Shown in pieces: positions 3,373-6,057 of a stretch of 64,000 bases of DNA. The first letter of the stretch is position 1. Each line of letters begins with the position of its first letter. The translations under genes were made by a program, and so were the position numbers. The DNA lies in contig NZ_WVHS01000002.1 of NCBI RefSeq assembly GCF_009834915.1, positions 434,001 through 498,000 of the forward strand, given 5' to 3'. Origin of the DNA: Hufsiella ginkgonis. GTDB lineage: Bacteria > Bacteroidota > Bacteroidia > Sphingobacteriales > Sphingobacteriaceae. The notes beneath the pieces are model-generated. The model searched no databases, had not been told where the DNA came from, and worked only from the letters and a program-made list of their open reading frames with translations.

Positions 3373-3762
3373 TTACTTTTCGTAAAGTTCCAGCGGAAGC
3401 TGGTCTGGATCGCTGAAAAACGTGAACTTCCTGCCTGTGCACTCATCGATGCGAACAGGCTCAGTAGCCACGCCGTGTGCCTGCAGGTTTGATATCGCTT
3501 CTGCAATATCGTCCACTTCAAAGGCTAGGTGCCTTAAACCAACTGCCTCGGGGCGTGAGGCCCGTACTGGCGGCTGCGGGAACGAAAATAACTCGACCTG
3601 GTAAAGGCCGTTGATGGCAAGATCGAGCTTGTACGACTCCCTTTCGGACCGGTATACTTCGGCCACGATCGCAAACCCGAGGATCTCCGTATAGAACTTT
3701 TTTGAAACGGCGTAATCGCTGCAGATAATGGCTAAGTGGTGGATGCGGTTTAACTTGATCAT
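3373..3762 (-). CDS. gloA2: YaeR/SMU1112c-type glyoxalase-like VOC metalloprotein
   Basis: A 129-residue vicinal-oxygen-chelate protein closely resembling E. coli YaeR: IHHLAIICSDYAVSKKFY at the start, VGLRHLAFEVDDI in the middle and LPLELYEK at the end. Paired beta-alpha-beta-beta-beta modules supply metal ligands (H9, E55-region, H75, E126-region). The substrate of YaeR-type proteins is not established. The start ATG overlaps the stop of the upstream PAS/HisKA gene as ATGA, showing translational coupling. A longer frame upstream was rejected because the family N-terminus begins here. Confidence 0.93.
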   Translation of the reverse strand: MIKLNRIHHLAIICSDYAVSKKFYTEILGFAIVAEVYRSERESYKLDLAINGLYQVELFSFPQPPVRASRPEAVGLRHLAFEVDDIAEAISNLQAHGVATEPVRIDECTGRKFTFFSDPDQLPLELYEK

Positions 3763-4955
3763 TCTGTTTGTTTTACGATGTGATGGATCTTTTGATCGAG
3801 GTCCCTCACCGCTTTTTCCATCAGCAGCAGGCATTCTTCGGAATCCTTATACCCCGACTCCCTGATAATGCTCATTAGCCCCAGGATCGAAGCCACCGGC
3901 GCCCTCAGCTCATGCGATTGAAAATGAGCGATCTTAAGAAGCGTTTCATTTTTTTCGCGTAAAGCGATCTCGTGTTTCTTGAGCTCATTCATATTTGCAC
4001 CGTTGAACGAGATACCCAGGATGTCGCCTTTGGTATCCCAGGCGGGTTCGTACTTAAATGACCACCAGATCGAAAACTCCCCGTAATCTATCCAAAGATC
4101 ATCATACGCCGTGATCCCTTCAATGGCGAGCCTGAACCTCGACAAAAAGCGCTCTTTATACGATTCGCTCAGGTATTCCATAATGTTGCTCCCGAGCACG
4201 ATTTCTCTTGAATGCGCCTTCCCGATAAATTCGGATACCGCGTTGTTAAAATCCAGGATATGCATCCCCTTGTCAAGCAGCACATGGCAGATCGATGAAC
4301 TGTGAAAGAATGCCCGGAGCTTCGCCTCCGAATTTTCGGCGATGAGCATCTGTTTTTCCAGCTCGAGTGCGCGGGATTGCGCCAGTTTTTTTTCTGATTT
4401 ATAATAATTGCGAATGTAAATGGTAACGTAATAAATGAACAGCAGGGTAATCAGGTAGGTAAAAAAGATATCATAGGTCCGCCACCGGGCGTTTGGATAC
4501 GTATTGCGAAAAATATCCGGCATGGCCGATTCCACGAACAGCAGGCTCATCACAACCACTACGTGCAGAACGATCCAGACAATATGTTGCCGCCGGGGAG
4601 TAATGATAATCAGCAGGTTGAACGTAAAAAAAAATAAGAAAATGGTTGGACCATTAATTCCCGAATTAAAATAATAATTGGAAATAAGCGCCAGGTAACT
4701 AATAACGGCGCTTCCCATCACACTAAACCTGAACAATTTTTTAAACCTCGAAAGGCAGTAAAAAGTAAGCAGCAATATCAAAACGCTGATACTAAGCACT
4801 ATTACAGGCAGCAAATGCAGCAAAAGATTAACCAGCAGGAACCCCGTAAGCACGATAATGCTGATGATACAGGCAGCATGATAAGTTCTTGCTTCCATGG
4901 AAAACTCTTTAGCTGAGCCAATCAGGTCATTCCACTTGGTTTTTAACTTATTCAT
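3759..4955 (-). CDS. Membrane PAS-HisKA protein lacking the kinase ATPase domain
   Basis: 398 aa from ATG 4955. Six hydrophobic segments fill roughly residues 28-180, then a short helical linker, a PAS-like domain (about 210-325) and a HisKA-like helix with the phospho-acceptor motif FQSHELRAPVASILG (His near residue 348). The protein ends about 50 residues later at HHIVKQTE, so the HATPase_c domain of a histidine kinase is absent. No frameshift is needed, as the next gene overlaps by ATGA. A TATATTTG promoter element lies between this ATG and an upstream in-frame ATG (4988), supporting the chosen start. First gene of the gloA2-trmN6-phosphoesterase-fbp run and divergent from a complete histidine kinase. 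Confidence 0.85.
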   Translation of the reverse strand: MNKLKTKWNDLIGSAKEFSMEARTYHAACIISIIVLTGFLLVNLLLHLLPVIVLSISVLILLLTFYCLSRFKKLFRFSVMGSAVISYLALISNYYFNSGINGPTIFLFFFTFNLLIIITPRRQHIVWIVLHVVVVMSLLFVESAMPDIFRNTYPNARWRTYDIFFTYLITLLFIYYVTIYIRNYYKSEKKLAQSRALELEKQMLIAENSEAKLRAFFHSSSICHVLLDKGMHILDFNNAVSEFIGKAHSREIVLGSNIMEYLSESYKERFLSRFRLAIEGITAYDDLWIDYGEFSIWWSFKYEPAWDTKGDILGISFNGANMNELKKHEIALREKNETLLKIAHFQSHELRAPVASILGLMSIIRESGYKDSEECLLLMEKAVRDLDQKIHHIVKQTE

Positions 4956-4969
4956 AGGTGAAGTCCGGT

Positions 4970-4977
4970 CAAATATA
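4970..4977 (-). promoter_or_regulatory. Putative -7 element (TATATTTG) of the PAS-HisKA operon
   Basis: TATATTTG on the minus strand fits TAnnTTTG and lies 14 nt before ATG 4955. Its position inside the longer frame argues that translation starts at 4955 rather than 4988. Confidence 0.5.
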
Positions 4978-5016
4978 AAAAAATCCATACCTTTCTGTCA
5001 CTTTTACTACCCGCCA

Positions 5017-6057
5017 ATGAAATTGTATTCGCTACTATCAAGAGTAGCTTTTTTAAGAAACAAGTATTCCTATAAATTCCTTTTCGTAGCTTTTATAGGA
5101 ATTCACCTGCCTTTGATCGCGATTATCCTGCTGATATCCCTTTCCGGTAAACATACTTTTGATGCGTTTAATATTATCGTGGTAACGCTTATTGTCACGC
5201 TGTCGGCCACAGCGGCTACTCTATGGGTGCAGCATGCGCTGATGGAGCCCATCCGGGTATGCCGGGATGCGCTGACCGATTATGTAGAAAAGCAGCAGCT
5301 TCCCAATATTCCCAAATCATTTCCTGACGAGATTGGCGTATTGATGCGCGGGTTAACCATGGCCATACACACCTTTGATAACCACATCCAGGAAAAAAAG
5401 GCGATTACCAACCTGCTGGCGCACGACCTGCGGGCGCCTTTAAACAACATTATACAGATCACTGAGCTGATAGACGGGAACCAGGATGAGGAAAGCCTGA
5501 AGGAATATGTACACTATATCCGCCAGGCAGCAGCACACCAGCGAAACATCCTGGGCAATGTACTGGAGCTGATGAGACTGGAAATCAGGCATTCTCAAAC
5601 CTCCGAACAAACAAATGTAAAGGAAGTGATTAACCGCTGTGTCGAACACCTATCGATGAACATTACGGCCAAGGATTTAAAAGTTAACGTGAACGTTATG
5701 GCCAACCATAAAATAAACATCAGCAAGCAAGCCGTTGAACTGGTTATTAACAACCTACTAACTAACGCGATTAAATTCAGCCAGCCCGGACAGCCTGTTT
5801 ATATTGAGGGAGCGAGGCACAAAGATCATTTCCAGCTGAGCGTGAGAGACGAAGGCGAAGGTTTTAACACCGAGGACACATCCCGTTTATTTGACGTATT
5901 CACCAGGCTATCGCGCGAAGGTACTTTTGGAGAGGTTTCGAACGGAATCGGTCTCCATTTATGTAAAAAGATCATCGAAAGCAATGGCGGCCGCATTACC
6001 GCCAAAAGTGAGGGAAAAGGATCGGGCGCGACTTTTACGCTGGTGATACCTTATTAA
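5017..6057 (+). CDS. Membrane sensor histidine kinase
   Basis: 346 aa. Two transmembrane helices (about 21-41 and 52-72) enclose a very short extracytoplasmic loop, followed by a HAMP-like linker, a HisKA helix with LLAHDLRAPLNNIIQ (phospho-His H136) and a complete HATPase_c domain: N-box NNLLTNAIKFS, G1 DEGEGF, G2 GIGLHLCKKIIES. It has no receiver and no response regulator lies next to it, so its output is unknown. The frame extends 40 codons upstream, but ATG 5017 was chosen because it starts just before TM1 and avoids overlap with the divergent gene. Confidence 0.92.
   Translation: MKLYSLLSRVAFLRNKYSYKFLFVAFIGIHLPLIAIILLISLSGKHTFDAFNIIVVTLIVTLSATAATLWVQHALMEPIRVCRDALTDYVEKQQLPNIPKSFPDEIGVLMRGLTMAIHTFDNHIQEKKAITNLLAHDLRAPLNNIIQITELIDGNQDEESLKEYVHYIRQAAAHQRNILGNVLELMRLEIRHSQTSEQTNVKEVINRCVEHLSMNITAKDLKVNVNVMANHKINISKQAVELVINNLLTNAIKFSQPGQPVYIEGARHKDHFQLSVRDEGEGFNTEDTSRLFDVFTRLSREGTFGEVSNGIGLHLCKKIIESNGGRITAKSEGKGSGATFTLVIPY

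Follow-up and report, generated by a model that had tools for sequence, protein, structure and literature searches.

A gene at positions 3759–4955 on the reverse strand of a 64,000-nt stretch of the Hufsiella ginkgonis genome (contig NZ_WVHS01000002.1, positions 434,001–498,000; hereafter the window) encodes a 398-amino acid (aa) protein that comprises a six-helix membrane domain, a PAS domain and a HisKA/DHp hairpin, with no HATPase domain. We give about an even chance to the reading in which this protein, called the focus protein below, serves as a histidine phosphotransfer (or receiver-docking) module under sensor control. A phosphotransfer node is the simplest reading, because the protein has a phospho-acceptor His but neither an ATP-binding domain nor the phosphatase residue of HisKA kinases, and because receivers are found before and after the protein in part of its family.

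The focus protein and its natural end

The open reading frame (ORF) as a whole (3759–4988, reverse strand) comprises 409 aa, and reading from the ATG at 4955 gives the 398-aa protein (coding part, 3762–4955). Three parts follow one another along the chain, all encoded on the reverse strand: an N-terminal membrane domain with a signal helix (residues 20–219; 4299–4898), delimited from the N-termini of relatives and an AlphaFold2 model; a PAS domain (residues 220–322; 3990–4298), indicated by the same model, by the NCBIfam domain model “sensory_box” (30.5 bits, above the cut-off of 22.9) and by PAS structures; and a DHp hairpin (residues 323–398; 3762–3989), which stops where an ATPase domain would be expected to start. 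The hairpin contains the H-box FQSHELRAPVASILG, in which the conserved phospho-acceptor His is residue 348 (codon 3912–3914, reverse strand). This His is followed by an acid (HELRAP), and 50 residues separate it from the stop. Pfam gave a weak match to HisKA (18.7 bits, under the cut-off of 26.9), sub-threshold matches to PAS models and no HATPase domain in the focus protein, which thus does not qualify as an orthodox HisKA kinase. The combination found, a DHp hairpin with a conserved His and no functional ATPase domain, is one of the marks of kinase-derived histidine phosphotransferases such as Spo0B, ChpT and PhyT.

The AlphaFold2 model, for which a 67-row alignment (A4) was used, had a mean predicted local distance difference test score (pLDDT) of 83, with values of just 50–63 for residues 71–160. 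It contained six N-terminal helices, a PAS fold (223–321) and a two-helix hairpin (323–367 and 370–397) reaching the C-terminus. Simple hydropathy detected five clear membrane segments, and we place the number of membrane helices at about six. The top matches of the model in a Foldseek search of PDB were PAS/LOV kinases and PAS domains. An earlier, sequence-only reading of this DNA had argued from the membrane helices and the PAS domain that the sensor part is real, a view that agrees with their presence in a natural, stable protein. The N-terminus (about residues 14–213 of the 409-aa reading) also matched the N-termini of ~450-aa frames in relatives, several of which were shown to carry HATPase.

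The stop of the focus ORF is the natural end of the protein. The stop codon TGA (3759–3761) overlaps the ATG (3760–3762) of a VOC/glyoxalase-like gene downstream (3373–3762, reverse strand; Pfam Glyoxalase, 8.9e-23), and inspection by eye of the three same-strand frames 3′ of the focus gene, where the VOC/glyoxalase gene lies, revealed no ATPase remnant; for these two reasons we regard the stop as natural. The sequence-only reading had likewise described a protein that ends about 50 residues after its phospho-His, without HATPase and without need of a frameshift. The ORF, Pfam and the structural model bear out the first part of this description, and the ATGA overlap, the missing remnant and 204 relatives that end alike in the fetched set (see below) bear out the second.

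Upstream of the focus ATG, TATATTTG occurs at 4970–4977 (reverse strand). We take it to resemble the Bacteroidota −7 promoter element, a resemblance that would fit the ATG at 4955 as the start. When the H-box was searched for in the window as a degenerate DNA pattern, 2 matches were found against 4.7 expected; this lack of an excess has no bearing on the protein.

Extent and ancestry of the DHp-terminal family

We defined the family by a score of at least 50 bits with a profile of the tail and a stop no more than 60 aa past the model end; the focus protein scored 104.6 bits with 0 residues beyond the model end. In the tail alignment A1 (18 rows), the His, the Arg, the Pro and a later Asp were invariant, and the A1 profile had matches in 26 of the 31 genomes of the same taxonomic family (E 1e-9) and in 49 of the 296 genomes of the phylum (E 1e-11). 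Loci were fetched for the better profile matches only, and all ORF counts rest on those loci. In the first fetched set, 106 of 109 matches (the focus gene being counted twice) stopped at most 26 aa past the model; the other three were weak matches to ordinary kinases. The full set contained 221 unique ORFs, duplicates having been removed by the last 60 aa. A score of at least 50 bits was reached by 211 ORFs, 205 of which stopped within 60 aa past the model without a following ATPase domain. Among the other six, an ATPase domain followed the tail in four, and two were long without one: L069 was cut by the contig end, and L293 (1–2196) has its second receiver fused directly behind the family hairpin, in the place of a kinase's ATPase domain, no such domain being apparent in the part that was fetched. 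Altogether, 16 of the 221 unique ORFs were dropped because they scored below 50 bits, had an ATPase domain behind the tail or ran more than 60 aa past the model.

A second scan was performed with a closer alignment (A2) on species genomes that partly overlap those of the first scans, and yielded 151 pattern matches and 140 relatives; the best 80 of these 140 came from Bacteroidota (79) and Balneolota (1). Close homologues with an additional HATPase domain, on whose absence the earlier reading had made its case depend, were rare: 205 of the 211 ORFs were short, against four with an ATPase domain, and the best 80 relatives of the second scan were all short (80/80).

A tree of hairpins was calculated from 264 rows, thinned to 184 at 60% identity, and all 200 bootstrap trees were examined. 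One branch (support 100/99) split 139 ATPase-less hairpins from 45 kinase hairpins, and on this sequence-based evidence the ATPase-less hairpins are one clade with respect to the kinases sampled. By both score and tree, the full kinases nearest to the tail were Bacteroidota proteins of the SHDLR[AS]P type (L072, L073, L101 and L103; 52–62 bits), which differ from the family in having a complete HATPase domain after the hairpin.

Selection on the tail was estimated in a sister protein group of 23 close homologues (at least 55% identity to one Mucilaginibacter member), which were grouped by identity and not by a tree. All 23 keep the His, and all 23 stop exactly 60 aa after it. The median ratio of nonsynonymous to synonymous substitution rates (dN/dS), from pairs with dS of 0.1–2, was ~0.08 in the tail (52 pairs; median dS ~1.6, near saturation) and 0.13 before the tail. 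The missing ATPase domain is evolutionarily stable in the sister group.

These data bear on the possibility that the focus gene is a relic, either a kinase stripped of its ATPase domain and drifting or the product of an assembly or frameshift artefact. The membrane domain, which is shared with complete kinases, would agree with such an origin. However, the in-frame end with its ATGA overlap and no remnant behind it, the 204 fetched relatives that end alike and the low dN/dS of the sister-group tail, near-saturated dS included, leave a relic very improbable, and we rejected truncation or misassembly as an explanation in view of the similar ends of the relatives, the purifying selection on the tail and the missing downstream remnant.

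Other members of the family are fused to GAF, PAS or TPR domains. Seven members share the motif SH[QE][IV]R[GA]PV[AS]T (L036, L121, L129, L139, L141, L145 and L146), and the one at L036 has TPR repeats according to Pfam. At these seven loci, which come from the same taxonomic family, a helicase gene, presumably uvrD/pcrA-like, adjoins the member and the gene order is conserved.

Conserved residues, receivers and the source of the phosphoryl group

Across the 205 members, the His and the Arg at +3 were kept without exception (205/205), and the Pro at +5 was kept in 204. An acid was present at +1 in 115 of 205. Since 79 members had been fetched by an HE pattern and carry the acid by selection, the remaining 126 are more informative: 36 of them have the acid and 90 have lost it. 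Thr or Asn at +4 was found in 0/205. In those kinases of these loci whose H-box could be recognised (39 ATPase ORFs without one were excluded), the acid was present in 57/58 and Thr/Asn in 28/58. In a study of four HisKA kinases, kinase activity, unlike phosphatase activity, required the acid, and the Thr/Asn was required for the phosphatase but not for the kinase reaction (PMC3510030). The frequent loss of the acid and the absence of Thr/Asn therefore leave a bare phosphotransfer His.

Receivers accompany part of the family. With “nearby” defined as a gap of at most 600 bp on the upstream side or 250 bp on the downstream side, a same-strand single-receiver frame lay near 19 of 183 members before any targeted search, on both sides in 6. 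After a search with A3, an alignment of mostly receiver-linked members that steered the search to that subgroup, 29 of 205 members had a nearby receiver frame, with both sides occupied in 7; a rough expectation, calculated by hand from the 21 single-receiver frames in the H. ginkgonis genome (5.2 Mb), is <1. A receiver domain was present in the same chain in 21/205 members and either inside or nearby in 33/205. All of the 35 receivers examined (21 internal and 14 neighbouring) retain both the Asp and the Lys column, which are typical of receivers that accept a phosphoryl group. At L158, L160 and L163, one strand carries in succession the kinase(s), a receiver, a receiver(-PAS)-DHp protein and a receiver. 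Pfam confirmed the receiver-PAS-HisKA architecture without HATPase in L160, L151 and L163; in L158 it detects the receiver only, the hairpin being known from the tail profile. In addition, L181 has a short ATPase-bearing frame before the receiver, and L151 combines a receiver sandwich with a kinase on the opposite strand. Because receivers, adjacent or fused, recur in part of the wider family, we favour a relay over mixed dimers of the focus protein with a complete kinase.

In the relay that we propose, the DHp hairpin would dimerise into a four-helix bundle without an ATPase domain, a phosphorylated receiver domain would charge the conserved His, and the His would probably pass the phosphoryl group to a second receiver, as in Spo0B, ChpT or PhyT. 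The membrane and PAS parts may then set whether, or how fast, the transfer runs. That the orphan protein in the window works like its operon-encoded relatives is something we infer by analogy. As the protein has no ATPase domain of its own, any phosphoryl group must come in trans. Phosphorylation in trans, as put forward in the sequence-only reading, is thus likely, although we regard a receiver as a more probable donor than the divergently encoded kinase.

Several observations weigh against this relay. One of the 205 members, L108 (1133–4183, reverse strand), is a complete TPR-HisKA-HATPase kinase, whose ATPase domain is followed by PAS domains and a second, terminal family hairpin; without it, 204 members remain, of which 114 have the acid, none has Thr/Asn and 203 have the Pro. 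The frames of 19 of the 205 run off the fetched stretch upstream, where an ATPase domain is possible. The tree has 78 columns and an unsettled bootstrap, some of its kinase rows are on very long branches and may be misread, and its kinases were sampled from the fetched loci only. The clade of the window protein is mostly orphan: an upstream same-strand receiver gene was found in 2 of 75 focus homologues (L212 and L228), and the window gene itself has none. Among the eight homologues of this clade that were obtained without the HE pattern (window protein counted), seven also keep the acid beside the His, so that the loss-of-kinase argument fits the wider family better than the window protein. 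Finally, a receiver-PAS relative in the same genome (L034:2956–3906; C1, about 590 kb; domains read from sequence) ends in a degenerate hairpin, DQIRNPLTAV, that has lost the phospho-His. Because of this relative, ATPase-less hairpins can, as far as its sequence indicates, be useful without phosphorylation.

The Glu mostly kept at +1 in the window clade is the residue needed for kinase activity, and it would suit a split or mixed-dimer kinase, in which a complete kinase, such as the one encoded divergently, is the partner of the hairpin and phosphorylates the His with its ATPase domain, so that a second sensory input is added. As the sequence-only reading had noted, the divergent gene (5017–6057, forward strand) does encode a complete histidine kinase, with two membrane helices, HisKA (33.7 bits by Pfam; His codon at 5422–5424) and HATPase_c (73.6 bits). 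It most likely starts at the ATG at 5017, giving 346 aa, and is separated from the focus gene by a short divergent intergenic region (4956–5016). Split kinases are known: in CheA3/CheA4 of Rhodobacter sphaeroides the phospho-acceptor and the ATPase domain are on separate proteins, as in a split arrangement here, and EnvZ has been split in vitro (both in PMC3591291). The CheA pair differs, however, in having a CheA-type P1 domain rather than HisKA and a defined ATPase partner.

The special partnership with the divergent kinase that the earlier reading had suggested was not conserved. In a search of 60 genomes, two orthologue-like, near-full-length matches to this kinase stood out (44% and 35% identity), and neither had a tail-profile neighbour within 1.5 kb (0/2). 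Conversely, an ATPase gene lay within 700 bp in 7 of the 71 focus homologues with enough flank (window included), and the ATPase-gene neighbours of these seven were of varied lengths and orientations. A conserved pairing was therefore rejected. Beyond the pairing, the acid lost in the majority of members obtained independently of the HE pattern (90/126) and the HE/DxxN/T motif used for bifunctional split kinases (PMC3591291), found in 0/205 as no member has Thr/Asn at +4, also speak against a mixed-dimer kinase. Of the earlier proposal of mixed dimers, the Glu mostly kept beside the His in this clade stands in its favour, while the receiver company suggests a relay; we consider mixed dimers unlikely.

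In two related genomes (L153:2698–3969 and L161:4340–5605), a family member and a ~420-aa kinase gene are convergent, with a gap of 24–35 bp; these kinases scored only 32–33 bits with the tail profile. Among the neighbours of the focus clade, receivers and kinases formed one mixed cluster of 25 neighbours in 19 loci. When conserved neighbours of this clade were sought, a subgroup of mostly Mucilaginibacter loci shared its position, which gave no functional hint; the genes that it adjoins are, we assume, lysA/aspartokinase-like and cold-shock-like.

A search of the H. ginkgonis genome gave 78 HisKA matches. For five of them, the next 900 bp downstream contained no match to HATPase; these five are the focus protein, two relatives (C21 and C19), a HisKA-receiver-HPt protein and the His-less receiver-PAS protein described above. 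The HisKA-receiver-HPt protein (374 aa; L035:3004–4128; C12, about 846.5–847.6 kb) has an intact H-box and, judging from its domains, is a hybrid kinase minus the ATPase domain. The tail profile added three proteins (C12:1160252, C12:670691 and C1:1381273) that were missing from the Pfam search of the genome at E 0.001. Six hairpin-ending proteins of this genome scored 65–112 bits with the profile, and three with a downstream HATPase scored 43–50. Twenty-five ATPase matches in the genome had no upstream HisKA match.

The His-less relative would be expected if the focus protein were a non-catalytic regulator, whose hairpin docks on a receiver or on the DHp domain of a kinase and thereby acts as a block or a titrant in the manner of RetS or a decoy, with phosphorylation of the His being secondary. 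RetS, which inhibits GacS, has an ATPase domain and receivers, unlike the focus protein; it is a hybrid kinase said to act via DHp–DHp contact. Among solved structures, the tail profile had 28 matches (E up to 1), kinase DHp domains included. These comprised the DHp-containing chains 6dk7 and 6dk8, named RetS (E 4.5e-4 and 4.8e-4), so that the DHp sequences are detectably similar, but other kinases matched better (7n0e, 5.3e-8); no chain named Spo0B or ChpT was among the 28. Against a purely regulatory role, the His is kept in 205/205 members, which a pure decoy would not need, and His-less members are unlikely to have been hidden by the threshold, as most members score well above 50 bits. Like the mixed dimer, a non-catalytic regulator seems to us an improbable account of the focus protein.

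Relation to known systems and meaning

The family resembles Spo0B, ChpT and PhyT in its HisKA-like hairpin with one phospho-acceptor His, in that no autokinase activity is expected, and in the receivers on both sides of operon members (7/205, the window gene being without them). Spo0B keeps a degenerate ATPase domain. Published accounts present PhyT, ChpT and Spo0B as phosphotransferases derived from degenerated kinases (PMC5898713; for ChpT also PMC3433190), with an atypical ATPase fold in ChpT (PMC3433190) and a degenerated ATPase domain in PhyT (PMC5898713), whereas none follows the hairpin in the present family. The members described here further differ from all three in carrying PAS, GAF, TPR, receiver or membrane parts. 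The likeness lies in the layout, and we do not claim membership.

HisKA proteins without HATPase are already known as a count. A census of SMART (Amin, Porter and Soyer 2013, PMC3591291) counted 1556 among 42417 HisKA proteins and suggested that they may be split kinases; these share with our proteins the HisKA domain without HATPase, but the accessible text of the census names no family, clade or operon, and its motif, as noted above, does not occur in the 205. In the main text of another published census, of histidine kinase, HPt and response regulator domains, a term count found no mention of HATPase. A family, a clade or operons of such proteins in Bacteroidota were not met with in searches of an open-access library.

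More tentatively than for the focus protein itself, and with rather less than even confidence, we suggest that Bacteroidota may possess relay sensors that are independent of ATP and form one large monophyletic class, in which varied inputs (six-helix membrane domains, PAS, GAF, TPR and receivers) sit on one bare DHp hairpin that would gate the flow of phosphoryl groups between receivers rather than generate them; the membrane receptor in the window would then be a switchable phosphotransferase. The operons that encode a receiver, a DHp protein and a receiver (e.g., L160 and L163) make the question testable in vitro. If the relay is true, the label “histidine kinase” would be a misnomer for most, if not all, of the 205 members, the number of kinases counted in these bacteria would be too high, and a sensor could act in the middle of a relay.

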